Positions 15 through 37,033 of a stretch of 37,585 bases of DNA are shown here, one piece after another; within the stretch, counting starts at the first letter, position 1; every line of letters begins with the position of its first letter. The DNA lies in IMG/VR virus record IMGVR_UViG_3300032285_000369, positions 1 through 37,585 of that record; one strand, 5' to 3'. The notes under the pieces are model-generated. The model was not told where the DNA came from and searched no databases. It was given only the letters and a program-made list of their open reading frames with translations. Position numbers and translations under genes: made by a program. This DNA comes from a virus.

Positions 15-482
15 ATGCTATTTGGTCCAGGCTTTAAGGACTTCGACAAATTCTTTGTCGGTTTCGAAGACACTGCAAAACAACTACAAACTTTGCACGC
101 TGATCTAACGAAAAACATTCCCAACTATCCACCATACAACATTCGTAAGAATGACGAGAATTCATACACAATTGAAATCGCAGTTGCTGGTTTCGGTGAG
201 TCTGAGATCGATATTGAGATTGATGGCGGTAAGTTGATTGTTAAAGGTAATGTTGATGCAGCTACTGATGCACTAGAAGATAACTTCTTGTTCAAAGGTA
301 TTGCTACTCGTGCCTTTACTCGCGCATTTGCTATCGATGATCATATCGAAGTAAAGAACGCAGAAATGTTCAATGGTATGCTTAAGATTGCTTTGGAGCG
401 TTTAGTTCCAGAAGAACAAAAGCCAAAGAAAGTTAAGATTAAAACTGCTGGTAAGCCACAAGTTCTTAACGAAGGAGAATAA
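15..482 (+). CDS. Small heat shock protein Hsp20 (IbpA-like)
   Basis: Alpha-crystallin-type small chaperone of about 155 residues that would hold unfolding proteins in the host cytoplasm. The sequence follows the bacterial IbpA pattern: a PPYNI segment near residue 40, then YTIEIAVAGF and SEIDIEI strands of the alpha-crystallin domain, a conserved G(I/M)LKIALER strand near residue 125, and a PEEQKPKKVKI tail. Small heat shock proteins are common in T4-like aquatic phages. The ATG at 15 is the first visible start, but the frame stays open to the window edge (codons for N, S, I and P precede it), so the true start may lie outside. It leads a tight operon with two tiny genes and rubrerythrin. 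Confidence 0.9.
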   Translation: MLFGPGFKDFDKFFVGFEDTAKQLQTLHADLTKNIPNYPPYNIRKNDENSYTIEIAVAGFGESEIDIEIDGGKLIVKGNVDAATDALEDNFLFKGIATRAFTRAFAIDDHIEVKNAEMFNGMLKIALERLVPEEQKPKKVKIKTAGKPQVLNEGE

Positions 483-591: not shown

Positions 592-740
592 ATTTTCTAG
601 ATCTAATAAAGAGTTTCTTTACCCTTCCAAGAGAGCAATCTGCGCTTGAACAATTCATTAATAGCAAACGTCCAACAAGTGCTTCTGATGTAGAACATTG
701 GACTCGTTACTTTTATGATAACAGAACGAGGTTTCTATGA
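588..740 (+). CDS. Tiny hypothetical protein (50 aa)
   Basis: A 50-residue frame (MNFLDLIKSF start) joined to its neighbours by ATGA at both ends: its ATG overlaps the stop of the 35-residue gene and its TGA overlaps the rubrerythrin start. AAGGGGGATCGG lies before the ATG as a ribosome binding site. The C-terminal half has an acidic-aromatic pattern (SDVEHWTRYFYD) resembling very short phage and proteobacterial proteins in which a 'DVE-W-R-F' helix recurs (DUF3563-like by eye). The function is unknown. Its place between a chaperone and an iron enzyme suggests a stress-linked role, which is inference. Confidence 0.55.
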   Translation: MNFLDLIKSFFTLPREQSALEQFINSKRPTSASDVEHWTRYFYDNRTRFL

Positions 741-1189
741 TGTCCGCAACATTAAAGAATCTTGAAAGTGCGCTTGCTGGTGAGTCAATGGCTCATATCA
801 AGTATCGTTATTTTGCTAAGATCGCTCGCGAAGAAGGATTCGAAGATGTTGCAAAACACTTTGAACATACTGCTGATCAAGAGATTAAACATGCATGGGG
901 TCATCTAGAATTGCTAATCGGTAAGCCATCCACTAAGGAATGTTTACAGAAAGCAATTGATGGTGAGACTTATGAGTATACAGAAATGTATCCACAGTTT
1001 CAAGCGATTGCAGTTTCAGAGGGAGACCTACACGCAGAAAAAGAAATGCGTGGACAGATCCAAGAATCCTTTGAACATGCGCAAGAGTTCAAGGCTGTTT
1101 TAGCAAAAGCTGAAAAGCGTTTCAATGCTTTAAAGAAAGTTGAAGAACGTCATGCTAATGCTTATAAAAAAGTCTTGGAGGATTTATGA
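737..1189 (+). CDS. Rubrerythrin-like diiron protein
   Basis: Ferritin-like four-helix diiron protein of 150 residues. Rubrerythrins reduce hydrogen peroxide using electrons from rubredoxin. Visible ligands include E16 in ESMAHIKYRYFAK, the E49-x-x-H52 pair in DQEIKHA, acidic residues near 77-83, E114/H115 and E136/E137/H139 near the C-terminus. Classical rubrerythrin ends with a rubredoxin domain. This one stops after the diiron domain (erythrin-like), and the missing electron-transfer module is encoded by the next gene, which starts inside its stop codon. Two adjacent ATG codons (737 and 740) are possible starts. Confidence 0.85.
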   Translation: MMSATLKNLESALAGESMAHIKYRYFAKIAREEGFEDVAKHFEHTADQEIKHAWGHLELLIGKPSTKECLQKAIDGETYEYTEMYPQFQAIAVSEGDLHAEKEMRGQIQESFEHAQEFKAVLAKAEKRFNALKKVEERHANAYKKVLEDL

Positions 1190-1323
1190 TAGAAATAGTA
1201 CGTATGTGTATAGTCTGTGGTCACGTTCATGATGAAGACTTAGAAGGTAAATGGGATGAACTTCCTGCTGACTTTGAATGTCCTGAGTGTGGTGTTGGCA
1301 AAGACGAATACGAAACTTTGTAA
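1186..1323 (+). CDS. Rubredoxin (45 aa)
   Basis: A 45-residue protein with both rubredoxin metal knuckles: C8-x-x-C11-G-H near the N-terminus and CPECGVGKDEYE at the C-terminus (C32 and C35), the latter matching the canonical CPxCGxxKxxF pattern. It should bind one iron through four cysteines and carry single electrons in the cytoplasm. The ATG overlaps the rubrerythrin TGA (ATGA), and a GGAGG at 1178-1182 provides a ribosome binding site, so the two proteins should be made together. The obvious partner is the rubrerythrin. The spacer between the knuckles is shorter than in typical 52-54-residue rubredoxins. Confidence 0.88.
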   Translation: MIEIVRMCIVCGHVHDEDLEGKWDELPADFECPECGVGKDEYETL

Positions 1324-1338
1324 GTAATCGTAGCAAGT

Positions 1339-1360
1339 AGGGGGACTTTCGAGTTCCCCT
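1339..1360 (+). terminator. UUCG-tetraloop hairpin, terminator or mRNA end
   Basis: A nine-pair stem (AGGGGGACT with AGTTCCCCT, one G-U wobble) closes on a TTCG tetraloop at 1348-1351, directly after the rubredoxin gene. UUCG-capped hairpins are typical of T4-group terminators and stabilised mRNA ends. There is no run of T after the stem, so it may be a processing or stability element rather than a strong intrinsic terminator. A late-promoter-like CTAAATA begins at its last pair (1359-1365). Confidence 0.65.
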
Positions 1361-1371
1361 AAATACTTGTT

Positions 1372-4158: not shown

Positions 4159-4514
4159 AAGTAGCAATCAATCGTTGTTTTGGTGGGTTTGGTATTTCAA
4201 ATGAAGCATTTGAGAAACTACTTGATCGTAAGGGTATTGCTTTTGACAAAGTAGAGAATGAATCTAAATTATTAGGATCTTCTTATTTTGAAGCAGGTCA
4301 TTCTGGCGACGATGATCATTATCTAAGCGACTATGACTTCTGTAACAATAGATCTGATCCAGATTTAATCGCAGTTATTGAAGAGATGGGTACTGCAGCA
4401 AATAGTTGGGCTGCCGATATTACTATTGTAGAAATTCCTGACGATGTTGAATGGCATATTCATGACTATGATGGAATGGAACACGTAGCAGAAAACCATA
4501 GGACTTGGGGTTAA
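4155..4514 (+). CDS. Conserved phage hypothetical (INRCFGGFG family)
   Basis: A 119-residue protein of a family widespread in tailed phages, recognised by its N-terminal INRCFGGFGISNEAFEKL, a central RSDPDLIAVIEEMG followed by a helix, and a C-terminal VEIPDDVEWHIHDYDG with a final RTWG. It is acidic and probably globular. No biochemical function is known to me. It lies between ligase and the radical SAM gene, with an ATGA overlap upstream and a shared TAATG downstream. Confidence 0.75.
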   Translation: MKVAINRCFGGFGISNEAFEKLLDRKGIAFDKVENESKLLGSSYFEAGHSGDDDHYLSDYDFCNNRSDPDLIAVIEEMGTAANSWAADITIVEIPDDVEWHIHDYDGMEHVAENHRTWG

Positions 4515-6013
4515 TGGCAGATGTAATTATTCTTAGTGGCTCAAAGTTTAATGAAGAGGATACTCCTCGGATTCAGAGATCCTTGGGACCATATAGAATT
4601 GCTTCTGAATTAAAGAAACATGGATATACTGCAGTTGTTATAGATTATACTCAGTATATGACAGTGGAAGAAATTAATTCTGCGGTAAATAAACATCTCA
4701 CAAGAGAAACTCTTTGGGTAGGTTATTCTTCTACTTTCTTTTACCTGATAAAGAATAGTATGCATACTGCATATGAAAAGATGTATCAGACTAATACTGA
4801 AGATAGAATGAATGCTATTTACAGTAACATTAAAGAAAATAGTAATGCCAAGTTAGTTTTCGCTGGAGCATATGCGCTTCTTTCACATTCTGATAAGAAT
4901 ATTGATTATTACCTTGCTGGTTATGGTGACGTATCAACTATTGACTTGACTGATTTTCTTGCTGGAAAGAAAGATAAACTAGAAAATTATACAGAAAAGA
5001 AATTTGAAGATAAGGTTTCTTTTGTTATTGATTCAGGCAAATATCCTGAACCAAAGATGACTGAGTTACAAACATTCTATCACGATAAAGATTTTTGTTT
5101 ACTTCCAGGTGAAGGTATTCCTTTAGAGTTTGCTCGTGGTTGTATTTTTAAATGTAAGTTTTGTTCATACCCATTATTGGGTAAAAAGAAAGGGACATAC
5201 ATTAGAGATATGGAAGAGGTTCGTGATGAACTTCTTCAATTGTGGGAAGCAAATGGTACTGAATCTTTTTATGTAACTGATGATACCTTTAATGATGATA
5301 ATGATAAGATGGAAGCATTCCATAAGTTGTTTACATCATTGCCATTCAAACCTAAGTTTAGTTGTTTCCTACGTTTAGATTTAATTGATAGATTCCCCCA
5401 TCAAGCCGATTTACTTTTAGAAGCAGGGTTAGTTGGTAACTTCTTTGGTATTGAATCTTTTAATCATAAAAGTGCAAGAGCAATTGGTAAAGGATTACAT
5501 CCTGATCGTGTAAAAGAAAGACTGAAGTGGGTCAGAGATAAGTGGAAGGGTAAAGTTAATACTGGAGTTGGATTAATTATTGGATTACCATATGATGATG
5601 AAAAATACTTTCAAGAACTATATGATTTTGTTCACTCAGAAGACTATCCCGTTCAACACACATCATTCAATGCGTTACACATAACTGATACAAAGAATGG
5701 TGTTAACTTATATGGGTCAGAATTTGCTATGAATCCAGAAGTATATGGATATGCTTTTAATGACCAAGGTTGGTACCATAAAGAACAAGGTATTGATTTT
5801 CAAACTTGTAAAAATATTGCCAGTTATTTTGAAAAATCTTTTATGGGTGAGCACTTGGTTCCAGACTTTCAAGTAATCACATATTTGAATATGGGTATTC
5901 CTCTTGAAGATATTCTAACAATACCTGAACAACAATTACAAAAGAAATATAATATAGCAAAAATGAATCACGAAAAGATTATCATGTATAAAAAAATGAT
6001 TGGAGCAGTATGA
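4514..6013 (+). CDS. B12-binding-type radical SAM protein
   Basis: A 499-residue radical SAM enzyme. The 4Fe-4S motif is ARGCIFKCKFCSYP, with C210-x3-C214-x2-C217, followed by an elongator/MiaB/NifB-like barrel (FYVTDDTFNDD, FFGIESFNHKSARAIGKG, GVGLIIGLPYDDE). The N-terminal ~200 residues (DVIILSGSKFN, YSSTFFYLIKN, YLAGYGDV) resemble a Rossmann-type B12-binding domain, although no DxHxxG cobalamin motif was found. The true start is the ATG at 4514, not the TTG at 4505. The substrate is unknown. Radical SAM enzymes work in some phage thymine-hypermodification pathways, so a link with the 13.8-20.6 kb locus is possible but unproven. Confidence 0.85.
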   Translation: MADVIILSGSKFNEEDTPRIQRSLGPYRIASELKKHGYTAVVIDYTQYMTVEEINSAVNKHLTRETLWVGYSSTFFYLIKNSMHTAYEKMYQTNTEDRMNAIYSNIKENSNAKLVFAGAYALLSHSDKNIDYYLAGYGDVSTIDLTDFLAGKKDKLENYTEKKFEDKVSFVIDSGKYPEPKMTELQTFYHDKDFCLLPGEGIPLEFARGCIFKCKFCSYPLLGKKKGTYIRDMEEVRDELLQLWEANGTESFYVTDDTFNDDNDKMEAFHKLFTSLPFKPKFSCFLRLDLIDRFPHQADLLLEAGLVGNFFGIESFNHKSARAIGKGLHPDRVKERLKWVRDKWKGKVNTGVGLIIGLPYDDEKYFQELYDFVHSEDYPVQHTSFNALHITDTKNGVNLYGSEFAMNPEVYGYAFNDQGWYHKEQGIDFQTCKNIASYFEKSFMGEHLVPDFQVITYLNMGIPLEDILTIPEQQLQKKYNIAKMNHEKIIMYKKMIGAV

Positions 6014-7766: not shown

Positions 7767-10252
7767 TGGAATTTTATACTTCGGTGCACCCGATTGGAGA
7801 TCGAATCTTCATTCGTGGTGTGGAGAATGGTAAACGCTACCAACGTAAACTAGACTTCAGTCCTACCCTTTACGTAACTTCAAAGAAACCCTCCAAGTGG
7901 AAGACACTGGAGGGAACATTCGTTGATGAAGTTAATCCTGGATCTATTAAAGATACTCGAGAGTTTATCAAACGATATGAGGGTGTTCAAGGGTTTGATG
8001 TTTATGGAAACTCAAACTACGCATATCAATACATCAGCGATAACTATTCGCATGATGTTAACTGGGATATGGAGCAGATTAAAGTATTCACCATTGATAT
8101 TGAGACTTCAACTGAGAATGGTTTCCCTGATATTAAATCTGCCAATGAAGAGATCCTACTAATCACTGTTAAAGAACTTTCTACAAAACGAATTATTACT
8201 TTCGGCAGCAAAGCATATGTCAACCCACGTGAAGATGTAATTTATGTTAATTGTAAAGATGAACATAATCTTCTTACTCAGTTTCTAGAGTTTTGGACTA
8301 AGAGTCATCCCGATGTTATCACTGGTTGGAATACTGACTTCTTTGACATGCCGTATCTTATTCGTAGGATTGAACGTGAACTTGGGGATGGTGAATCCAA
8401 CAAACTAAGTCCATGGGGATATGTTAATGAGCGTAAAACTTTCATTAAAGGTAATGAAGAGATTCACTATGACATTATCGGTATTGCTCAGTTAGATTAT
8501 CTTGAACTGTATAAGAAATATACATATTCTAAACAGGAAAGTTATCGTTTGGATTATATCGCTGGTGAAGAACTTGGTGACAAGAAGAAAGTAAATCCAG
8601 GCGATTCATTCAAAGATTTTTATACTAATCACTGGCAGCAGTTCGTTGACTATAATATTCATGACGTAGAGTTGGTTGACAAACTAGAAGACAAAATGCG
8701 TCTAATCGAACTGCATTTGACGATGGCTTATAATGCTAAGATTAATTTCGAAGATGTGTATTCGCAGGTTCGTATGTGGGATACGATTATCTATAACCAC
8801 CTACGTAAAAAGGGTATTGTTGTTCCTGCTAAATCCCATTCAGGTAAAGATGCGCAGTTCGAAGGTGCTTATGTTAAAGATCCAATCGTTGGTCTTCATA
8901 AATGGATGGCATCGTTTGACTTGAACTCATTGTATCCGCATTTGATTATGCAGTATAATATTAGTCCTGAGACTTTGACATCTGAAAAGATTAGTGTAAC
9001 TGTTGATAAACTTTTGAATCAAGAGATTGATACTACATATGTTAAACAACGAGATCTTGCGCTAACTGCAAATGGTTGGACATATACTAAAGAGTTCAAA
9101 GGTTTCATGCCTGAGTTGATGGAAAAGATGTATACTGACCGAAGCAAGTTTAAGAAGCAGATGCTAAAGGTTCAACAGGAATACGAGAAAGATAAGTCTC
9201 AGAAACATTTACTCAAAGATATTTCTCGTTTGAATAACCTTCAAATGGCTATGAAGATTGCGCTGAACTCTGCTTATGGTGCTATGGGTAATCAGTATTT
9301 CCGATACTTTGATATCCGTATGGCTGAAGGTATTACTACGTCAGGTCAGTTGTCTATTCGTTGGATGGCTAATAAGTTAAACGCATTCATGAATAAAACC
9401 CTTAAGACTGAGGGTAAAGATTATGTAGTTGCCATTGATACTGATTCAATCTATCTTACACTTGAAACATTAGTTGAGACAATGTGTGAAGGCAAGACTG
9501 ATGAGCAGAAAATTAAGTTCATGGACAAAGTTTGTGAAGATGTTTTCCAACCATTCATTGATTCAGGTTATCAAGAATTAGCAGATTATATGAATGCGTA
9601 TAGTCAGAAGATGCAAATGAAACGAGAGGTTCTGGCTGATAAAGGTATCTGGACTGCTAAGAAAAGATATATCCTTAATGTTCACAACTCAGAGGGTGTT
9701 CAATATGCGAAACCTAAAATTAAAGTTATGGGTCTTGAAATGGTCAAGTCCTCTACTCCTGCGGTTATTCGTGATAAATTGCGAGATTCAATTGAGGTTA
9801 TCCTTAAAGGAAATCAAGCAGATCTTCAGAACTACATTATGTCGTTTCGTAAAGAGTTCGATAAACTTCCAGTTGAAGAGATTGCGTTTCCACGTGGTGT
9901 GAATGGCATGAAACAGTACGCAGGTTCGCCTATCTATTCTAAGGGAACTCCGATCCATGTTCGAGGTGCTTTGCTATTCAATCACTATACTAAGAAGATG
10001 GGTCTTGATAAAAAATATCAACCGATTCGTGATGGCGATAAGATTCGTTTTGTTTATGTTCGTAAACCAAACCCATTTCAAGAAGATGTTATTGCGTTTA
10101 GTCAAGAGTTGCCATCAGAGTTTGATTTATTATCCTACATAGATTATGATAAGATGTTTGAAAAGGTATTTACTGATGCTCTTCAAATTGTTATTCAACC
10201 ATTAGGATGGTCTACTTCTGAACAAAGTTCACTAGAGGATTTCTTTGGTTAA
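7766..10252 (+). CDS. Family B DNA polymerase (gp43)
   Basis: Phage replicative polymerase with proofreading, 828 residues (T4 gp43 is about 898). Exonuclease motifs: FTIDIETS with D111 and E113, NTDFFDMPYL (Exo II) and YNIHDVELV (Exo III). Polymerase motifs: FDLNSLYPHLIMQYN (A), KIALNSAYGAMGNQ (B), VAIDTDSIYLTLE (C) and AKKRYIL (thumb side). The C-terminus, SSLEDFFG, matches the expected clamp-binding tail, as in T4/RB69 where the last residues of gp43 bind the sliding clamp. The start shares a base with the exonuclease stop, and the 3' end overlaps the next gene by eight bases. Confidence 0.97.
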   Translation: MEFYTSVHPIGDRIFIRGVENGKRYQRKLDFSPTLYVTSKKPSKWKTLEGTFVDEVNPGSIKDTREFIKRYEGVQGFDVYGNSNYAYQYISDNYSHDVNWDMEQIKVFTIDIETSTENGFPDIKSANEEILLITVKELSTKRIITFGSKAYVNPREDVIYVNCKDEHNLLTQFLEFWTKSHPDVITGWNTDFFDMPYLIRRIERELGDGESNKLSPWGYVNERKTFIKGNEEIHYDIIGIAQLDYLELYKKYTYSKQESYRLDYIAGEELGDKKKVNPGDSFKDFYTNHWQQFVDYNIHDVELVDKLEDKMRLIELHLTMAYNAKINFEDVYSQVRMWDTIIYNHLRKKGIVVPAKSHSGKDAQFEGAYVKDPIVGLHKWMASFDLNSLYPHLIMQYNISPETLTSEKISVTVDKLLNQEIDTTYVKQRDLALTANGWTYTKEFKGFMPELMEKMYTDRSKFKKQMLKVQQEYEKDKSQKHLLKDISRLNNLQMAMKIALNSAYGAMGNQYFRYFDIRMAEGITTSGQLSIRWMANKLNAFMNKTLKTEGKDYVVAIDTDSIYLTLETLVETMCEGKTDEQKIKFMDKVCEDVFQPFIDSGYQELADYMNAYSQKMQMKREVLADKGIWTAKKRYILNVHNSEGVQYAKPKIKVMGLEMVKSSTPAVIRDKLRDSIEVILKGNQADLQNYIMSFRKEFDKLPVEEIAFPRGVNGMKQYAGSPIYSKGTPIHVRGALLFNHYTKKMGLDKKYQPIRDGDKIRFVYVRKPNPFQEDVIAFSQELPSEFDLLSYIDYDKMFEKVFTDALQIVIQPLGWSTSEQSSLEDFFG

Positions 10253-10793
10253 TATACGTATTATTAAAACTGGAATTAATGTTTCTAAAATATTGAAACA
10301 GTTAAAAGAACACCCAGAAGATTGGATGTCTCAGAGAAACATTGATGGTGCACAATCTCTACTTGATAGAGGTTATGATGATATCCCAGTTGGAAATCTT
10401 CAGCTGGTTATGGGTGGTATAAATCATCCTGAAGAATTTGTTGGAGATAGTGAGATGTGTATCCCAACTCCAGCAATAAAGAATCATACAGAGATTGTAG
10501 GATTTATGAAACGCAACTTTAAAAAATTTAGTCGTTGTGGTTTCTTATCATTACCAGTTGGTGGTATAGTTGGTCGCCATATTGATGAAGGGTCTTATTA
10601 TCTTACAAGAGATCGTTATCATTTATCCCTTCAGGGTAGATATAGATATTTTGTAGGCGATGAGTATTATGATGTTGAACCTGGAACATTACTGTGGTTC
10701 AATAATAAACTTATGCACGGAACTGAGAACATTGGAGACTGTACTAGAGTCACATTTGTATTTGATGTTCCGCATTCTAAAAACAATCCATAG
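10245..10793 (+). CDS. Asp/Asn beta-hydroxylase-like 2OG-Fe(II) oxygenase
   Basis: A 182-residue cupin-fold oxygenase of the aspartyl/asparaginyl beta-hydroxylase type. Key residues: H112-x-D114 in GRHIDEG, R/H residues in RDRYHLSLQG, distal H158 in LMHGTEN and R168 in CTRVTFVF for 2-oxoglutarate. Substrates in phages are unknown; protein or small-molecule hydroxylation is likely. No ATG is available near the N-terminus. The TTG at 10245, inside the polymerase stop region and preceded by AGAGGA, is the best start, which implies translational coupling to the polymerase. Confidence 0.82.
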   Translation: MVNIRIIKTGINVSKILKQLKEHPEDWMSQRNIDGAQSLLDRGYDDIPVGNLQLVMGGINHPEEFVGDSEMCIPTPAIKNHTEIVGFMKRNFKKFSRCGFLSLPVGGIVGRHIDEGSYYLTRDRYHLSLQGRYRYFVGDEYYDVEPGTLLWFNNKLMHGTENIGDCTRVTFVFDVPHSKNNP

Positions 10794-13811: not shown

Positions 13812-15125
13812 ATGGTTAAGATAATTGTAGCAGAACAGAAACATAATTGTGAACATCTTCTTGGTAAGTTTGTTGATGAATCACATTATGATCATCTTAT
13901 TGAAGAAGATACTGATGTTTATATGCCACCACAATTTGGTGAAGATCCAATCTCAGAGAAACGAATCGTATTGAAGTTTCGTAAAAATTATTTTAGTAAA
14001 GAGCAGCAAGATGCAGCATACGTCGGACTTAGAGAAGCAGCTATTCGCACAGAGAATCGAGGACTTGCTTCTGGTATCAAGGATGGCATTCTTGCCACAA
14101 CTGAAGGAAGAGAATGGGTAACAAATTATCAAGATGAGATGATGCGTGCCCTCATTAAGAATCGTAACTCTGCTCTTGATAATGAAGATGTCATCGATAC
14201 TGTTCGTGCCAAATATCCACGTGAAGTAGATAAGAAGATGGCTGGTGGTGATGGTAAAAATAATGTATGGGTTATCTCTCGTTTCCGTGGTAAATTTGAT
14301 TTTGAAGCATGGCTTGACTCAATTAAATCATTTACACGTGAAGAAAGAGCCAAAGCAACAGAAGAAGTTATGAAGATGGTTAGCACAACTACTTACGGTA
14401 GTGCTGTTAACTCTGGCATTGCTGGGTGGTTCGATCGTTATCCACGTATTCCTTATGGACGTGCTACTTCTTATACTCGCGATAACTTTGACAAATTTAA
14501 AATGTCATACCCATTCCTTCAAAATCTTGCTGAAGGTTTTAAGAATCTTTTACCAGAACGCTATGCTGCTCAAATGTCTGCAGCAAATAAACTAGACCCA
14601 AGGTTCTTAGTTCCAGGAACACCATTTACAACAGTAACTGTTAATAAAACATTTAGAACTGCTGCACATAGAGATGCTGGTGATTTAAATGAAGGTTTGT
14701 CTAATCTATTAACATTGTCTAACGATGGTAAATATACTGGAGGATATTTGATTGCACCTGAGTATCGTGTTGCGGTTAATGTTCGTCCAGGAGATTTGCT
14801 TCTTATTAATAATCACGAAGTTATGCACGGCAATACACCTATCGTTTGTGAAGAAGGCTCTGAGCGTGTATCATTGGTAGTTTATTTCCGTGAGAAAATG
14901 TTAGAACTTGGTTCGCATGAATACGAAGACTGTCGTTATAACTTTGTTGAATCTCGTAGACTAAACAAAGAACATCCATTATGGAAACCACTATGGAATG
15001 GCGTATCAGAATCTATGTGGGATAGTCAAGAATGGTATGACTATCTTGAATCTAAATTGGGTCAAGAAGAACTACACAAATATCATCCTGAGGCAAATTC
15101 TTCTTCATTAGAAAGTTTCTTCTGA
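13812..15125 (+). CDS. TET/JBP-like 2OG-Fe(II) DNA base dioxygenase
   Basis: A 437-residue protein whose C-terminal half matches the TET/JBP oxygenase pattern: FTTVTVNKTFRTAAHRDAGD with H286 and D288 as iron ligands, a glycine-rich GKYTGGYLIAPEYRVA, PGDLLLINNHEVMHGN with the distal histidine (H335 or H339), and R352 in ERVSLVVYFRE for 2-oxoglutarate. In this family the enzyme oxidises the methyl group of thymine (JBP) or 5-methylcytosine (TET) in DNA. The N-terminal ~200 residues are unassigned. The last residues, SSSLESFF, nearly repeat the polymerase tail and may bind the sliding clamp. TAGGAGAAAGAT precedes the start. Confidence 0.8.
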   Translation: MVKIIVAEQKHNCEHLLGKFVDESHYDHLIEEDTDVYMPPQFGEDPISEKRIVLKFRKNYFSKEQQDAAYVGLREAAIRTENRGLASGIKDGILATTEGREWVTNYQDEMMRALIKNRNSALDNEDVIDTVRAKYPREVDKKMAGGDGKNNVWVISRFRGKFDFEAWLDSIKSFTREERAKATEEVMKMVSTTTYGSAVNSGIAGWFDRYPRIPYGRATSYTRDNFDKFKMSYPFLQNLAEGFKNLLPERYAAQMSAANKLDPRFLVPGTPFTTVTVNKTFRTAAHRDAGDLNEGLSNLLTLSNDGKYTGGYLIAPEYRVAVNVRPGDLLLINNHEVMHGNTPIVCEEGSERVSLVVYFREKMLELGSHEYEDCRYNFVESRRLNKEHPLWKPLWNGVSESMWDSQEWYDYLESKLGQEELHKYHPEANSSSLESFF

Positions 15126-23346: not shown

Positions 23347-23793
23347 ATGGATGAGTTAAAAACAGCAATTAAAGTATTACTGGCTAATGCAACAGTAATG
23401 TATTATAAGACACACCAGTTTCATTGGAACGTAGAAGGTATTGAATTTACTCAGTATCATACATTCTTTGAAGAAATATATACTGATGTTTATAACTCTG
23501 TAGATCCAACTGCTGAACTACTACGTAAGTTAGATGAGTATGCTCCAGTTAGTATTGATGAACTTTACAAATATAAAACATTAGAAGAAGAAACAACTAG
23601 AGTTATCCTTCTTTCTGATATTCTAGCAAGTCTGATTAAGGCAAACGACGAAGTCCTTGCCAGCCTAAATAAAGTGTTCACTATTGCAAATACGAATAAA
23701 CAACAAGGCATTTGCAATTTTATTGCTGATAGAATAGATACGCATCAGAAGCATGGTTGGTTCTTACGTGCTTCTGCTAAGAAAATAGGGTAA
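23347..23793 (+). CDS. Dps-like ferritin
   Basis: A 148-residue ferritin-family protein of the DNA-starvation (Dps) type. The ferroxidase signature is visible: KTHQFHWNVEG (H26-W-N), H38 in TQYHTFFEE, and D53-x3-E57 in VDPTAELLR. Dps forms 12-subunit shells that oxidise and store iron and may bind DNA, protecting it from peroxide. It lacks a lysine-rich DNA-binding N-terminus. It lies among late genes, 2 bases after the nucleotidyltransferase-fold gene and 2 bases before the RNA-ligase-like gene, so it could be made late or packaged. Confidence 0.85.
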   Translation: MDELKTAIKVLLANATVMYYKTHQFHWNVEGIEFTQYHTFFEEIYTDVYNSVDPTAELLRKLDEYAPVSIDELYKYKTLEEETTRVILLSDILASLIKANDEVLASLNKVFTIANTNKQQGICNFIADRIDTHQKHGWFLRASAKKIG

Positions 23794-23795
23794 GT

Positions 23796-25010
23796 ATGAA
23801 ATCGTTTCAAACATTTTTAAAAGAAGAAGCTGAAGGCGAAAAACTAAAGCATATTACTCATGCTGAAGATCGCCCATTAATGCATGGTCATGAAGGATTT
23901 GAGCATGCTCATGGCGCACTAATGCAAGCCCATCATCATACTGTTGCTGGTGCTAATAATAGCAAGTTAACAATGAAGTATGATGGTTCTCCTTCAGTTG
24001 TTTTTGGTCACCATCCTAAGAATGGTAAGTTCTTTGTTGGCACAAAAGGTGCTTTCAATAAAGATCCAAAGATTAATCACACAGAAGCCGACATTGATAA
24101 GAACCATGGCCACGCTCCTGGATTAGCAGTTAAATTAAAAGCAGCATTAAAACATCTACCAAAAGTAACCCCAAAGACTGGCGTTTACCAAGGCGACATT
24201 ATGCACTCGGAAGGTGATGTTAAGACTGATAAGAAATCAGGTTCTGCTAAGTTTACTCCAAATACAATCTCTTATACTGCTCATGGCGATGAAGCAAAGA
24301 AAGCATCTGGCTCAAAGATTGGTGTAGCTGTTCACCAAAAATATGAGCATGGTGAAGGTGCAGATCCTAAGTCTTTAGAATCAATGCATGTTACTCCGCA
24401 TCCAGATACTCATAACTTTGGTGAACATAAAGATGTTCACCTTAAGACTGCTAATCATGACACTTCTAAAGTAAATTATCCAAAAGAAGCCCAAGACGAA
24501 TTCCATAAGCATATGAATGCCGCAAAAGATATTCATGATACTCATGGTCATAAAATGTATGATGCAGTTCACCCAGCCCATAGTGGTGATACTGGTCATT
24601 TGGCTTCTTATATTAATCATACAGTTAAAACAGATACAGTTCCAACTGCAAAAGGTTTACAAGGACACGTTACTGCTCATTATGAAAAGAAAGCAGCTGG
24701 TGTTAAGTCTGATGCAGCAAAAGCAAAACATACAGGTGAAGGTGCTTCACAAGTAGCGCATATCGAAAAGAATAAGTCACATTACGATAATCTATTGAAC
24801 ATGCACAGTCATTTGGCTGCTGCCAAGAATGTTTTAGTGAAACATTTAAATACTCATACTGGTGGTCTTGAGCATCACATTGGCGATAACAAAACAGATC
24901 CAGAAGGATTTGTTGTTAATCATGAACACAATGGTAAAGAACAACCAACTAAATTAGTTAATCGTAAAGAGTTTAGTAAAGCAAACTTGTTAAAGGTTTA
25001 TAAAAAATGA
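23796..25010 (+). CDS. RNA-ligase-like nucleotidyltransferase-fold late protein
   Basis: A 404-residue, strikingly histidine-rich protein of a family common in marine T4-like phages (DUF6267-like by memory). It shows ligase-type motifs: K61-YDGSPSVVFG resembles motif I (KxDG), GKFFVGTKGAF follows as in RNA ligases, GVYQGDIMHSEG is near motif III, and DPEGFVVNHE (E370) with PTKLVNR (K386) resemble motifs IV and V. This suggests a covalent nucleotidyl-lysine enzyme or a derived structural fold. The N-terminus MKSFQTFLKEEA is like other late proteins here. It overlaps the next gene by ATGA. Confidence 0.7.
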   Translation: MKSFQTFLKEEAEGEKLKHITHAEDRPLMHGHEGFEHAHGALMQAHHHTVAGANNSKLTMKYDGSPSVVFGHHPKNGKFFVGTKGAFNKDPKINHTEADIDKNHGHAPGLAVKLKAALKHLPKVTPKTGVYQGDIMHSEGDVKTDKKSGSAKFTPNTISYTAHGDEAKKASGSKIGVAVHQKYEHGEGADPKSLESMHVTPHPDTHNFGEHKDVHLKTANHDTSKVNYPKEAQDEFHKHMNAAKDIHDTHGHKMYDAVHPAHSGDTGHLASYINHTVKTDTVPTAKGLQGHVTAHYEKKAAGVKSDAAKAKHTGEGASQVAHIEKNKSHYDNLLNMHSHLAAAKNVLVKHLNTHTGGLEHHIGDNKTDPEGFVVNHEHNGKEQPTKLVNRKEFSKANLLKVYKK

Positions 25011-25426
25011 TCTCATTTAAAGAATACCTCGAAGAAGGTAAACGTGGATTGTGGGATAACATTCACGCTAAACAAGAAAGAATCAAGAATGGTTCTGGTG
25101 AACACATGCGCAAACCAGGAAGCAAAGGTGCTCCAACTGCTGCTGCATTAAAGGCTTCTCAAACCAACGAAGCTGCAGTTGATGCCAAGGGTTACAAATC
25201 ATCTACTGGTGGTCTGACTCAAAAAGGACGCGATCATTATAATGCTCAGGGTGGTCATCTAAAAGCACCAGTAACAACTCCACCTTCAAAGTTAAAGGCT
25301 GGTAGCAAAGCAGCAAATCGTCGTAAGTCTTTCTGTGCACGTATGAGTGGTGTTGAAGGTCCAATGAAGAAACCTAATGGTGAACCAACTCGTAAAGCAC
25401 TTGCTCTAAGAAAATGGAATTGTTAA
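25007..25426 (+). CDS. Conserved late phage protein (RKSFCARMSG family)
   Basis: A 139-residue basic protein ending in a strongly conserved phage signature: STGGLTQKGRDHYN, then PPSKLKAGSKAANRRKSFCA, then PMKKPNGEPTRKALALRKW. This domain occurs alone or as part of larger head-region proteins in many myoviruses. Its biochemical role is not known. The N-terminus (MISFKEYLEEGKRG) resembles its neighbours. High arginine and lysine content fits an internal, nucleic-acid-contacting virion protein, which is inference. Confidence 0.75.
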   Translation: MISFKEYLEEGKRGLWDNIHAKQERIKNGSGEHMRKPGSKGAPTAAALKASQTNEAAVDAKGYKSSTGGLTQKGRDHYNAQGGHLKAPVTTPPSKLKAGSKAANRRKSFCARMSGVEGPMKKPNGEPTRKALALRKWNC

Positions 25427-25427
25427 T

Positions 25428-28400
25428 ATGTTAACATATAAAAAACTACAAGAAGAATTGGGTGGAAAAGAAAAAACAGATAAATCTGTTTCTCTTAAAT
25501 CCCATAAGGTAATGGCATTCGGTCGCATGAATCCAATTACTACTGGGCATGAAGCAGTAGTTAATAAAGTCCATGAAGTTGCTAAGAAACATAACGCTGA
25601 TCATGTAGTTATTGTTTCACATAGCCAAGATGCTAAGAAAAATCCATTATCAGCTGAGCAAAAAGTTAAACATGCAAAGAATGCATTTCCTGGAACTAAT
25701 GTTCAAGCTGCCAGTAAAGAGAATCCTACTATCCTTCATCATGCTGCTCAAGCACATTCTGCTGGAGCGCAACATCTCCATGTAATTGCTGGTTCTGATC
25801 GCCACCAAGCCATGCATGATTTACTTCATAAGTATAATGGTCAACATGCTGCTCATGGTCATTATAATTTTAAATCTATTACTGTTCATTCTTCTGGCTC
25901 TCGAGATCCAGATGCTGAAGGTACTACTGGTATCTCTGCCAGCAAAATGCGCGAACATGCTGCTTCTGGTAATAAAGAAGCATTCCATGCTAATGCACCA
26001 TCTAAAATGAAACCTGAACATAAGGACGCAATGTATAACGACGTGCGTAAAGGTATGAATCTAAAAGAACATATCGAAAAAGTAGCTGGTGGTTATGAAG
26101 TTGAGAGCGAACATGGTAATAAAAATCTAGGTAAATCACCAACTCTTGCTGGTGCAAAGAAACGTCTAAAACAAGTGGAGTACTTTAAGCACATGAAAGA
26201 AGAAACTAAAGAACAACAAGATGATCGCGCAGCCCAATTAAAGCGTTTCAAAGATCAAATGACTAAAGCAAATGGTCCAAAGAAAGATACTGAACTTGGT
26301 TTAGATAAAAAAGAAAAAGAAGCAATGGTACAAGTTCAAGAAGTTCTACGTCCAGATATGGGTGCAGGTGCTTACATTAATGATTTTATCAAGTCAACAA
26401 ATCCACGTTTTAATAATAAGTCTAAAGAAGAACGTCGCAAGATGGCTATTGGTGCATACATGGCTGCCAAAGCAAGCATGAAAGAAGAAGTTCAGATTGA
26501 TGAACTGTCAACTGATCTACTAGGCAAATATAAAACTGCTGCTCATGCTTCTGCCAAAGCAGCTGATGCTTCTGGTAACTATGCAAAAGGTGACAAGCGT
26601 TTTAAAGGTATCAACAAAGCAACTAATAAACAATTTGACAATGATTTAAAGAAACATGGTCAAATAAAAGAAGGTTCTGATCCATACGAAAGAGCTGAAG
26701 AAAGTATGCGTTCAGCTGATGCTGCCAAGAAACAAGGTAAAATGGTTGATCACCATCTACATATGGCTGACTATCATGACAATCGCGCAGAATGGCACCA
26801 TGATGGTGGACGTGTTAAAATGGCAGAAATTGATTATGAAAAAGCAAAACACCATCATAATACAGCACTTGGTTTAAAAGAAGGTACTATTCAAACAAAT
26901 GGTACTGATCAAATTGAAACATCAACATCTGCTCCATCAGCATCAACATCAAAAGATACTACTATGGGCAAAAAGATTAAAGGATTTAAATTCTTTAATG
27001 GCGAGAATGATAAGCAAATGAATATGAATCAACCAATTAAGGAACAATTAGATCTTTGCTTACAACCACTAGAAGAAGCAGCAAAAGCAATTGATAGTGG
27101 TGAGTATGACTATGAAGGTCAAATGGCTCGCACTCAATTGCAAACTATTCTACGCAACTCAAAGGATTTAATTGATATGTTATCTGATGAAGATAACATG
27201 CCTGAGTGGGTTCAATCTAAGATCACTTTAGCACAAGATTATATTACTTGCGTAAGAGATTATCTACAATCTAAAGAAGAACTTGGTGAAAGTTTCAGAA
27301 GTTACTCTGGCAGAAGCCATGGTCATGCTTATGGTGGTGGTGGATTTGGTAAGAGAGAAAGAGAAGATGATGAGTACCATGTACCTGATCCAATTCCAGT
27401 AGCACCAACTATTGCTCGTAAATATATCAAAGGCACACCAGAGAACAAAGCAGCAAAGGCTGCAAGTAAACCAATCAATGGTCACCCAACTAATAAGACT
27501 AACGAAGAAGTCGAAGCAATTGACGAGAAGTCCATTCAAGCACGTCGCAATAAGACTTACAAAAACTTAATGGCTGCTTCTAAAGGTGCACGTGTTAACA
27601 GAGAATTAGGCATGACACCTAAAGATACTGGACATAAAAACAATCAGCAAATGAACAAAGCAATTGGTCGTGCTGTTACTCGTGGTGAAGTATTTGAGGC
27701 ATCTACTGGCAATCCAGGTAAGGGTTATCATGGCGCATGCGGTACTGCTGATGAGAAGTATGAAGAAATGCATAAGCATGTTAAGAATTTAACTGATGGT
27801 GATGATAAGACAGTTAAACATTATCTAGATTCAGGTCATGGCGAAAAACTTGCTGGACGCGAAGAAGATCATGACCATATTAAGTCAGACTTTAAAAAGT
27901 TTATGAAATACTATCGTCCAGAAATGAATGATTCAAAACCAGCTGTTAAAGAAGAAACTGCTCCAGTTGGAAAACCACAAAAGATTGCGCTTAAAACTGC
28001 AGTAATTAAATTACATCCGAAAGGTGTTGCTTCTGACACTGAAGAGGGTTGGGCAAAACCAAAAATTAAAGAGGGAACTATGAAATCATATAAAGACTTT
28101 TTACAATCATTAGATGAAAAACTAATTGGAAAACAAAAGAAAATCGACAAGAACCATAATAATAAAATAGATGCTGAAGATTTCAAACTTCTACGTAAAG
28201 AAGAAGTTGAATTAGATGAGTCTATTTACTCATCTGCTGAGCAAGCAAAAAATGTTGCTGCTGCATTAAAACAAAAACATAATGATGGGAACTATTCTGT
28301 TGTTAAAACTAGAACTGGTCATAAAGTAGTCCACGCTTATGATAGCGACGCTAAAGTTAAATCTGCTATTAGATCAGTAAATGAAGAATCAACTGACCAT

Positions 28401-28808
28401 AAAGCTGAATACGAACATCATATGAATAAGCATATTGAGCATGCTGAATCAGGTGACTGGGATAAAGCTGAAGAGCATGCTGAGAAAGCAGAAGATGCTG
28501 CTACTAAACATTTTAAAGCAACTGGTAAGAAAATTTATGATCCAGGATACACTGGTGGTCATGAGCATATCACTAGCAGTCAGAATGAACAGAAAATTGA
28601 TGAAATCAAAATGGCTGATGTTCCTTCACGTATTATCAAAGGTAAATCTTATGGAGCTGATTACGAAGATCCAGAAGGCGCATTTGAGACTAAGAAAGAC
28701 ATGAAGAAACCAGAAAAAGCAGGTCGTAAGGCTGGTGCAGGTGCTGGCGTATACAAACCACGTGCAACTATGTCCAAGCTGAAGTCAGCTGGCGCAACTT
28801 ATAAATAA
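25428..28808 (+). CDS. Giant mosaic late protein with nucleotidyltransferase domain
   Basis: An 1126-residue mosaic. Residues ~25-210 form a cytidylyltransferase-like domain with FGRMNPITTGHEAV, SQDAKKNPL, VIAGSDRH and an intact ISASKMREH (ISSTxxR-type) motif. A long low-complexity lysine/glutamate/histidine-rich region follows, with recurring acidic linkers (KEEVQIDEL, NEEVEAIDE, KEEVELDES) that resemble late-protein termini. Near residue 905 an EF-hand/dockerin-like loop is visible (DKNHNNKIDAEDF). An in-frame ATG at 28080 after GAGGGA begins MKSYKDFLQ, like true starts of its neighbours. It is probably a virion or prohead-core protein; whether the enzyme domain is active is unknown. Confidence 0.75.
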   Translation: MLTYKKLQEELGGKEKTDKSVSLKSHKVMAFGRMNPITTGHEAVVNKVHEVAKKHNADHVVIVSHSQDAKKNPLSAEQKVKHAKNAFPGTNVQAASKENPTILHHAAQAHSAGAQHLHVIAGSDRHQAMHDLLHKYNGQHAAHGHYNFKSITVHSSGSRDPDAEGTTGISASKMREHAASGNKEAFHANAPSKMKPEHKDAMYNDVRKGMNLKEHIEKVAGGYEVESEHGNKNLGKSPTLAGAKKRLKQVEYFKHMKEETKEQQDDRAAQLKRFKDQMTKANGPKKDTELGLDKKEKEAMVQVQEVLRPDMGAGAYINDFIKSTNPRFNNKSKEERRKMAIGAYMAAKASMKEEVQIDELSTDLLGKYKTAAHASAKAADASGNYAKGDKRFKGINKATNKQFDNDLKKHGQIKEGSDPYERAEESMRSADAAKKQGKMVDHHLHMADYHDNRAEWHHDGGRVKMAEIDYEKAKHHHNTALGLKEGTIQTNGTDQIETSTSAPSASTSKDTTMGKKIKGFKFFNGENDKQMNMNQPIKEQLDLCLQPLEEAAKAIDSGEYDYEGQMARTQLQTILRNSKDLIDMLSDEDNMPEWVQSKITLAQDYITCVRDYLQSKEELGESFRSYSGRSHGHAYGGGGFGKREREDDEYHVPDPIPVAPTIARKYIKGTPENKAAKAASKPINGHPTNKTNEEVEAIDEKSIQARRNKTYKNLMAASKGARVNRELGMTPKDTGHKNNQQMNKAIGRAVTRGEVFEASTGNPGKGYHGACGTADEKYEEMHKHVKNLTDGDDKTVKHYLDSGHGEKLAGREEDHDHIKSDFKKFMKYYRPEMNDSKPAVKEETAPVGKPQKIALKTAVIKLHPKGVASDTEEGWAKPKIKEGTMKSYKDFLQSLDEKLIGKQKKIDKNHNNKIDAEDFKLLRKEEVELDESIYSSAEQAKNVAAALKQKHNDGNYSVVKTRTGHKVVHAYDSDAKVKSAIRSVNEESTDHKAEYEHHMNKHIEHAESGDWDKAEEHAEKAEDAATKHFKATGKKIYDPGYTGGHEHITSSQNEQKIDEIKMADVPSRIIKGKSYGADYEDPEGAFETKKDMKKPEKAGRKAGAGAGVYKPRATMSKLKSAGATYK
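28800..28807 (+). promoter_or_regulatory. T4 late promoter (TATAAATA)
   Basis: An exact match to the T4 late consensus TATAAATA, overlapping the stop codon of the giant gene and ending 28 bases before the ATG at 28836, which has its own AAGGAGAA binding site. It should be read by the phage late sigma factor with the sliding clamp. Confidence 0.75.
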
Positions 28809-34668: not shown

Positions 34669-36486
34669 ATGGCATATCTGCATGGTATAAAAGTAGATTT
34701 CGAACGAGATGAATTGTTCGATGAGTTAGGTAAGTTGAGATTAAAAGAAAGTTATATGAAGGATGATGAAGTAAGTCCACAAGAAAGATTTGCTTTTGTT
34801 TCAAGTACATTTGGGAGTAACCCTGAACATGCGCAACGATTATACGAATATAGCAGTAAACATTGGTTGTCTTATTCTACTCCCATTCTTTCTTTTGGTA
34901 GGTCTAAGCGTGGCATGCCTATATCATGTTTCCTTAATTATATTGAAGATACTGCAGAAGGATTGGTTGACAACCTTTCGGAAACTAATTGGCTCAGTAT
35001 GCTCGGGGGTGGGGTTGGTATTGGTTTTGGTATTCGTAGTGCCGACGATAAGTCTACTGGCGTTATGCCGCATCTTAAAATGTACGATGCGTCTTCTTTG
35101 GCGTATCGTCAGGGGCGCACTCGTCGTGGTAGTTATGCTGCCTATCTTTCTATTGATCACCCTGATATCATTTCGTTCTTAGAAATGCGCAAGCCAACAG
35201 GCGACCAGAATATGCGTTGCTTGAACATGCACCATGGTATTAATATCCCAGATGCATTTATGGAAATTATTGAGAAGTCAATGATTGATCCAAACTTTGA
35301 TGACTCATGGAATCTAGTTGATCCAGCATCAAATGAAGTTCGTGAAACTGTTTCAGCAAGGGAATTGTGGCAGCGTATCCTTGAAATGCGTATGATGACT
35401 GGTGAACCATACATTCACTTTATTGATGAATCAAATCGCAAACTACCACAACACTTGAAAGATCTTGGCTTAAAGATTCATCAGTCAAATTTATGCTCAG
35501 AAATTATTCTACCAACTAATGAGAAACGAACCGCAGTTTGTTGTTTATCTTCATTAAACTTGGAGTACTACGATGAATGGAAAAACGATCCTTTATTCCT
35601 TTCTGATACTGCAGAAATGCTTGATAATGTTCTTCAGTATTTTATTTCTAATGCGCCTTCCACCATTAAGCGTGCAAAATACTCAGCCATGCGTGAACGA
35701 AGCATCGGTATCGGTGCTCTTGGATGGCACGCCTATCTGCAAAAGAACAACTTACCATGGGAAAGCCCACAGGCTGTAGGACGTAACAAACAAATATTTG
35801 CTCACGTTAGAGGAAAACTAGATGAAGCGAACAAAAAGTTGGGATTGGAACGTGGTGAAGCACCTGATGCAGTGGGTACTGGGAATAGGTTTAGTCATCT
35901 TATGGCTATTGCTCCCAATGCTTCTTCTTCCATTCTCATGGGCAATACTAGTCCTTCTATTGAACCTTTTCGTGCCAATGCTTATCGCCAAGACACTTTA
36001 TCGGGTTCTCACTTAAATAAAAATAAACACCTTGATGTGGTTATTATGAAGCACCTGTCTCCCAGTGGTGCACCTTTGACACCGAAAGGCGAAGATGAAT
36101 ACCAACAAATTTGGAGTTCAATTATTGCGAATGATGGAAGCGTTCAGCACTTGGATTGGATGGATGACTGGACAAAAGATGTGTTCAAGACTTCTATGGA
36201 AATTGACCAGCGTTGGGTCGTCCAGCATGCCGCAGACAGGCAAGTATATGTAGACCAAGCGCAGTCGTTGAATGTTTTCTTTAGACCTGATAGTAATATT
36301 AAGTATATCCATGCTGTTCACTTCCAAGCATGGAAACAAGGTTTGAAGACTATGTACTACTGCCGTTCCGATAAGATTGCTAAGGCTGATAAAGTTTCTA
36401 AGCGTATCGAACGTGAAGTTATTAAAGAAATTAATCTACAAGCACTTACAGGAGATGCTGATACTTGTTTAGCGTGTGAGGGGTGA
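34669..36486 (+). CDS. nrdA: Ribonucleotide reductase large subunit (NrdA, class I)
   Basis: A 605-residue catalytic subunit that reduces ribonucleotides to deoxyribonucleotides. Active-site cysteine C87 in GMPISCFLN and the radical-site triad N274-C276-E278 in SNLCSEI are visible, with TAVCCLSSLNL after it. The C-terminal CLACEG pair would accept electrons from thioredoxin or glutaredoxin. At 605 residues against about 760 in E. coli, it appears to lack the N-terminal ATP-cone, so allosteric activity control may be missing. It is followed by a small oxygenase gene and then nrdB. Confidence 0.94.
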   Translation: MAYLHGIKVDFERDELFDELGKLRLKESYMKDDEVSPQERFAFVSSTFGSNPEHAQRLYEYSSKHWLSYSTPILSFGRSKRGMPISCFLNYIEDTAEGLVDNLSETNWLSMLGGGVGIGFGIRSADDKSTGVMPHLKMYDASSLAYRQGRTRRGSYAAYLSIDHPDIISFLEMRKPTGDQNMRCLNMHHGINIPDAFMEIIEKSMIDPNFDDSWNLVDPASNEVRETVSARELWQRILEMRMMTGEPYIHFIDESNRKLPQHLKDLGLKIHQSNLCSEIILPTNEKRTAVCCLSSLNLEYYDEWKNDPLFLSDTAEMLDNVLQYFISNAPSTIKRAKYSAMRERSIGIGALGWHAYLQKNNLPWESPQAVGRNKQIFAHVRGKLDEANKKLGLERGEAPDAVGTGNRFSHLMAIAPNASSSILMGNTSPSIEPFRANAYRQDTLSGSHLNKNKHLDVVIMKHLSPSGAPLTPKGEDEYQQIWSSIIANDGSVQHLDWMDDWTKDVFKTSMEIDQRWVVQHAADRQVYVDQAQSLNVFFRPDSNIKYIHAVHFQAWKQGLKTMYYCRSDKIAKADKVSKRIEREVIKEINLQALTGDADTCLACEG

Positions 36487-36487
36487 T

Positions 36488-37033
36488 ATGTTAAACAGTG
36501 GACAAGTTTATGAAATAGATTCATTTCTATCCATAGATGAATATAGAATTGTATATGATGAATTCCAAATATATCAATGGCACTTTAGAGCAGGGGAAAT
36601 GGATTCCAATTCTCCTGTTCCTATTAGAACCTTTTGGCAAAAACCATTAGAGTCTAGCGAATATATTGTAGAGTTATTTAAAAATAAAATACAAAATATT
36701 TTAAATGTTAAAATTGATATTGGTAGGGTTTATGGAAATGGCCAAGCCCATGGTCAATCAGCTTGGGTTCATACTGATGATTCTCAAAATGATGGAAACA
36801 TTTATGGTTCTTTAGTATATTATCTAACACCAAATTGGAAACCATATTATGGTGGTCATTTAATTTTTGTAGATAGTGTTGAGAATCCTATTGAGGTTTT
36901 AAAATCAGTATTTCCAAAATCAAATAGTGCCGTTATGTTCAATTCAACTATGCCTCATATGGCATTAGAACCAAGTGTATATTGTTTAGAACAAAGAGAA
37001 AGTATTGCAGTAAAATTTAAGGTAAATAAATGA
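36488..37033 (+). CDS. 2OG-Fe(II) oxygenase between nrdA and nrdB
   Basis: A 181-residue prolyl-4-hydroxylase-like oxygenase: WVHTDDS with H95-x-D97, GSLVYYLTPNWKPYYGGHLIF, distal H157 in TMPHMALEP and R170 in RESIAVKFK for 2-oxoglutarate. The ATG at 36488, one base after the nrdA stop, is preferred over a GTG at 36476. Small oxygenases of this kind occur next to phage nrd genes, but the substrate is unknown. The nrdB ATG overlaps its stop. Confidence 0.82.
   Translation: MLNSGQVYEIDSFLSIDEYRIVYDEFQIYQWHFRAGEMDSNSPVPIRTFWQKPLESSEYIVELFKNKIQNILNVKIDIGRVYGNGQAHGQSAWVHTDDSQNDGNIYGSLVYYLTPNWKPYYGGHLIFVDSVENPIEVLKSVFPKSNSAVMFNSTMPHMALEPSVYCLEQRESIAVKFKVNK

Follow-up and report, generated by a model that had tools for sequence, protein, structure and literature searches.

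A recurrent pair of adjoining rubrerythrin and rubredoxin genes in uncultured T4-like phages, with a probable role in peroxide reduction

Why would a phage carry a rubrerythrin gene whose stop codon overlaps the start of a separate rubredoxin gene, did the phage itself split the two, and how regular is the arrangement among viruses? These questions are raised by a 37,585-base stretch of viral DNA from IMG/VR (IMGVR_UViG_3300032285_000369; "the window" below means this whole stretch). A first-pass annotation had described a diiron-type protein gene and a separate rubredoxin gene joined by ATGA, in a phage and within one transcription unit. Both points held: the two ORFs matched PF02915 and PF00301 and overlap at 1186–1189, the window encodes a T4-like gp43, and gp23 was found in 7 of 16 related phage records. 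The features of the locus are as follows.

15..482, + strand: Hsp20-family gene (PF00011, phrog_432); 5′ context, outside the pair
740..1189, + strand: rubrerythrin, long form, one domain, 149 aa (PF02915, alignment of relatives, tree, AF2 fold)
1177..1181, + strand: GGAGG, ribosome-binding-like site for rubredoxin, within the 3′ end of the rubrerythrin gene (read from the sequence)
1186..1189, + strand: ATGA overlap of rubrerythrin stop and rubredoxin start (read from the sequence)
1186..1323, + strand: rubredoxin, short form, 45 aa, four conserved Cys (PF00301, solved rubredoxins, Cys invariance)
1338..1361, + strand: stem-loop 3′ of the rubredoxin gene (hairpin kept among relatives)

The ORF at 737–1189 matched PF02915 (E = 4e-18, 66.4 bits; cut-off 22.8), and its best solved relatives were all rubrerythrins or sulerythrins; against the NCBIfam rubrerythrin equivalog it scored 74.9 bits, under the cut-off of 200. 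An ATG at 737 offers an alternative start (150 aa), but the ATG at 740 is the likely one, since relatives open with M-S-[AVLI]-T-L and the codon at 737 overlaps the stop of the preceding ORF. Classical (group 1) rubrerythrins, such as those of Desulfovibrio vulgaris and Pyrococcus furiosus, share the ferritin-like bundle, and their peroxide reduction is rubredoxin-linked, but their own chain includes a rubredoxin domain at the C terminus, whereas the phage protein ends without such a domain and has no CxxC pair there.

The second ORF (1186–1323) matched PF00301 (E = 1.7e-8, 34.8 bits; cut-off 23), with its cysteines spaced CxxC-20-CxxC. In length and in its shortened inter-CxxC stretch it resembles the short solved rubredoxins 6rxn (46 aa) and 6nw0 (45 aa); His follows its first CxxC, a position taken by Tyr or Phe in many rubredoxins, and the Trp ahead of the second is replaced by Phe. 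G-rich sites like the GGAGG at 1177–1181 were present at most rubrerythrin-rubredoxin junctions of relatives. The hairpin 3′ of the rubredoxin gene, found in 78 of 132 relatives compared with 11 in shuffles, probably marks the end of the transcription unit. It is of the TTCG type and runs straight into CTAAATA (window 1338–1366), as is often so in relatives; CTAAATA serves marine T4-like phages as a late-promoter motif, and the two elements together are possibly a terminator fused to a late promoter.

The phage background of the pair is that of an uncultured virus. The family-B DNA polymerase of the window (gp43, T4-like type) shares about 55% identity with polymerases of marine T4-like phages and cyanophages, and RecA/UvsX-like, DnaB-like and ligase ORFs were recognized by eye. 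A search with 24.9 kb retrieved no close cultured relative, giving just 1–4% coverage. The Hsp20 gene was the commonest neighbor of the pair (70 related loci), and further phage families recurred as well. Elsewhere in the window, a Dps/ferritin-family gene (PF00210) lies at 23347–23793, and genes like it occur in many records of related phages. We also noted by eye radical-SAM-like, several Fe(II)/2OG-oxygenase-like and ribonucleotide reductase large subunit ORFs (4505–6013, 10245–10793, 13812–15125 and 34669–37033), many iron enzymes thus occurring together in this phage fragment, and long His/Lys-rich ORFs at 23796–28808, one of them 1126 aa.

How regular the pair is among viruses could be judged from IMG/VR, where 567 stretches matched when the rubrerythrin was the sole query. 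In all of the 80 best loci among these a rubredoxin gene lay downstream, and in 79 of them the two genes overlapped or abutted. Three scans together yielded 133 distinct viral rubrerythrins, each followed by a rubredoxin gene (within 60 b in 129 loci and at 149–431 b in the other four); some members of this set were collected via the rubredoxin, and 80/80 is therefore the cleaner count. Adjacent pairs, for which a search of phage databases had been proposed as a check, are thus much commoner than chance would give. A reciprocal search from the rubredoxin, based on an alignment rather than a single short sequence, found rubrerythrin directly upstream in 69 of 75 uncut loci; of the remaining six, one had rubrerythrin about 0.4 kb off and five had none close by. 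The slot behind rubrerythrin is filled in 8 of these 133 loci by a rubredoxin of divergent sequence (CPVCDYVYENDPDR...CPACSVEK). Separately, a 364,247-base viral contig of jumbo-phage size (L224) encodes a phage-type rubredoxin with no rubrerythrin within 3 kb.

Both genes are under purifying selection, with a median dN/dS of 0.13 for rubrerythrin and 0.16 for rubredoxin. Across the 133 viral relatives the four rubredoxin cysteines were invariant, as were E16, H20, E49, H52, E77, E80, Q107, E110, S111, H114, E136, H139 and Y143 of rubrerythrin. Among uncultured T4-like phages the pair recurs as a module: like phage auxiliary metabolic genes in general, it has cellular kin, is kept under selection and resides in genuine phage genomes. 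For vibriophage R21Y (PMC10671443) and a silage vOTU (PMC10146946), lone rubredoxin or rubrerythrin genes have been described and a part in oxidative stress proposed for them; unlike these, which are single genes in single records with no pair described, the present module consists of two genes. The pair had been flagged at the outset as not known to be a standard phage module; in the open-access (PMC) literature we found no report of a paired phage module.

Is the split a phage invention? It had been assumed that rubrerythrin normally carries its own rubredoxin domain and has here been divided, an assumption that we had to abandon. Rubrerythrins lacking this domain are a known class, to which group 4 and some of group 5 belong (Cardenas et al., 2016; PMC5114695), and bacterial members of the subfamily already have a separate, adjacent rubredoxin gene. 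We found full-length cellular relatives in Gallionellaceae/Sideroxydans, gammaproteobacteria and Myxococcales (about 55–64% identity), plus one rubrerythrin in a Vampirovibrio MAG (77%); rubrerythrins on plasmids were all below 60%. The Gallionellaceae, gammaproteobacterial and Myxococcales proteins also have no rubredoxin domain, and in most bacterial relatives a gene for a rubredoxin of about 54 aa lies immediately 3′ of the rubrerythrin gene. Among cyanobacterial long forms, rubredoxin was fused at the C terminus in 25 of the 25 listed at full length.

A maximum-likelihood tree of 116 sequences, in which the bootstrap had not settled, joined phage, proteobacterial, myxobacterial and cyanobacterial sequences in a long-form clade (99/99), placed the phage rubrerythrins in one clade with the Vampirovibrio gene inside it (87/99), and made this clade sister to the one-domain proteins of Myxococcales with moderate support (86/92). 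The aerobic short type and the protein of Pelagibacter phage Mosig fell outside the long-form clade, and the position of the latter indicates that phages acquired rubrerythrins at least twice. From taxonomy and architecture, we infer that the long-form clade corresponds to the group 5 "cyanobacterial-type" rubrerythrins (PMC5114695). Since bacterial members of this clade already combine the one-domain state with a neighboring rubredoxin gene, the split was not made by the phage; descent from a classical rubrerythrin through loss of the domain in a phage was rejected on this tree position. The Vampirovibrio pair (L083, 3346–4456) is chromosomal, beside a thiol peroxidase and an enolase-like ORF, which argues that the gene was exchanged between phages and bacteria more than once.

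The surroundings of the bacterial genes resemble a stress operon. In 30 bacterial loci, we found a flavoprotein reductase in 17, OxyR directly upstream in 14 and Dps in 5; the reductase lies downstream of the pair, and the representative that we scanned was NorW-like with a C-terminal Rbx_binding domain. Clusters of OxyR, rubrerythrin, rubredoxin and rubredoxin reductase, some with Dps in addition, were seen in Gallionellaceae, gammaproteobacteria and Myxococcales (L084–L115), and our search of the open-access literature turned up no report of such an operon. The phage protein shares with the one-domain proteobacterial sub-cluster of group 5 (PMC5114695) the long form, an ES..H motif with a later ExxHA..Y and the absence of a rubredoxin domain, as well as the rubredoxin gene just 3′ that most bacterial loci have. 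Compared with this sub-cluster, the phage rubrerythrin lacks two residues after helix 2, the phage rubredoxin is nine residues shorter between its CxxC pairs and its gene overlaps that of rubrerythrin, and the pair is accompanied by neither OxyR nor a reductase gene. No reductase of the PF07992 (Pyr_redox_2) family was detected in 16 phage records, which include two of 165 and 171 kb and may be fragments. The phage pair thus looks like a trimmed take from a bacterial stress operon, in which phages retained the last two steps of the bacterial chain, with a shortened rubredoxin.

As to the host, photosystem genes (PF00124) gave no matches in 15 phage records and so there is no sign of a cyanobacterial one. 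Nothing points in particular to a host of low-oxygen water, as had been suggested. The class of Vampirovibrio was considered as host group and rejected, the phage-type gene being present in only 1 of 240 of its genomes.

We next consider whether the protein has the fold and the metal ligands of a rubrerythrin. An AF2 model built with a diverse alignment reached a pLDDT of 95.2 (a run with 36 near-identical rows gave 57 and was left out) and placed helices at 4–32, 36–61, 66–94 and 98–149, forming a ferritin-like four-helix bundle. Residues 1–128 of the model superposed on sulerythrin and on Burkholderia pseudomallei rubrerythrin with Z 14 and an rmsd of 1.6–1.9 over about 127 residues. These group 4 (aerobic type) proteins have the same one-domain fold at 35–39% identity, but a shorter helix 4, a canonical ExxH and a separate clade; the "putative rubrerythrin" of phage Mosig also belongs to group 4 and, unlike the phage pair, has no adjoining rubredoxin gene annotated.

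The first-pass annotation had proposed looking for loss of key diiron ligands in alignments, and here the outcome was divided. The predicted ligand positions E16, E49/H52, E77/E80 and H114 were invariant in the 133 viral sequences, and both profile and fold alignments matched H114 with the helix-4 ligand His. The canonical bridging Glu of helix 4 (E126 in sulerythrin and the Glu of EKIH in P. furiosus), on the other hand, aligned with S111, which is Ser in all 133, with the invariant E110 one residue before it. From the spacing we had considered an insertion before the helix-4 ligand, an idea rejected once both kinds of alignment, by fold and by profile, located the additional residues beyond the bundle. 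The S111/E110 arrangement is common to the whole long-form clade, of which the active Anabaena RbrA is presumably a member; within the tree set, ES..H occurred in nearly all long forms and in none of 16 other rubrerythrins. Past the bundle, the extended final helix repeats the motif at a lag of 25 residues with a canonical E136..H139. This self-similarity exceeded that of shuffles in the four sequences tested (p < 0.0002 to 0.006), although other lags scored higher in one of the four. It is conceivable, though in our judgment unlikely, that long-form rubrerythrins of phages, proteobacteria and cyanobacteria have a rebuilt helix-4 half-site, with the E136..H139 repeat as a second metal or rubredoxin-docking site and a catalytic center unlike those solved; if so, phages would be spreading the most compact, two-gene version of a rubrerythrin with a rebuilt site.

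What, then, would the pair do? Judged from gene content and homology, it is probably the final segment of a bacterial NAD(P)H-to-H2O2 chain, in which rubredoxin would pass electrons from a host reductase to a peroxide-reducing rubrerythrin. The overlapping genes would cause both proteins to be made together; a host flavin reductase (rubredoxin reductase or ferredoxin/flavodoxin-NADP reductase) would deliver single electrons to the phage rubredoxin, which would hand them to the diiron site of rubrerythrin, where H2O2 would be reduced to water. Entry of electrons from the host is suggested by the lack of a Pyr_redox_2 protein in the 16 phage records. With peroxide thus kept low during infection, phage DNA and iron enzymes would be shielded from damage, and the Dps-like protein, where present, may share in this protection; its occurrence in the window and in many relatives fits a joint iron and peroxide defense. 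A peroxide-reducing role, already proposed in the first-pass annotation, is made probable by analogy with the bacterial homologs beside OxyR, rubredoxin reductase and sometimes Dps, and the partnership of the two proteins is argued by the cyanobacterial fusion.

The closest characterized protein leaves room for another route of electrons. Cyanobacterial RbrA, the heterocyst peroxidase of Anabaena, has peroxidase activity and was reported to be reduced by FNR itself, with no use of the attached rubredoxin (PMC6616624); the immediate donor may therefore be something other than rubredoxin. RbrA (Alr1174), which from its class we presume to carry ES..H, likewise combines a long-form ferritin-like domain with rubredoxin as a unit, but as a single fused protein of about 230 aa, in contrast to the phage pair. 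Were the phage rubrerythrin of the same subfamily, as presumed, it might be fed directly by a host FNR-type reductase, with rubredoxin serving another host partner and traveling by linkage, and the four viral loci with genes 149–431 b apart and the five rubredoxin loci without rubrerythrin close by agree with this. We nevertheless regard it as improbable, given the adjacency in 133 of 133 loci, the fusion in 25 of 25 cyanobacterial proteins and the rubredoxin-binding domain of the bacterial operon reductase.

The ferritin-like fold, the ferritin-family gene at 23347–23793 and in many related phages, and Dps in five bacterial operons are also what one would expect if the main role were iron handling or O2 consumption, that is, Fe(II) oxidation or O2 reduction together with the Dps-like protein, for DNA protection or for managing the iron of phage enzymes. 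We consider this quite improbable, as the recurrent regulator beside the bacterial genes is the peroxide sensor OxyR, and rubredoxin with a reductase forms a reducing chain that iron storage would not need. That the diiron site no longer works, the protein being a scaffold or regulator and the changed helix-4 motif a mark of lost catalysis, would account for S111 in place of the bridging Glu in all 133 viral sequences; but E110 and the other ligand positions are invariant, dN/dS is low, and bacterial and cyanobacterial long forms carry the same helix-4 motif, making this explanation very improbable indeed.

The enzyme type itself is known; what is new is the trimmed form of the pair in phages, how regularly it occurs and the change in its motif. 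If rubredoxin-linked peroxide reduction is indeed its role, T4-like phages in natural waters possess a recurrent electron-transfer pair dedicated to reducing peroxide, and it would become testable whether phage yield is limited by H2O2 inside infected cells. It would also draw attention to a subfamily of rubrerythrins that has been little studied and whose metal motif is altered, and for which the bacterial operon of OxyR, rubrerythrin, rubredoxin and rubredoxin reductase would offer a route to working out function.
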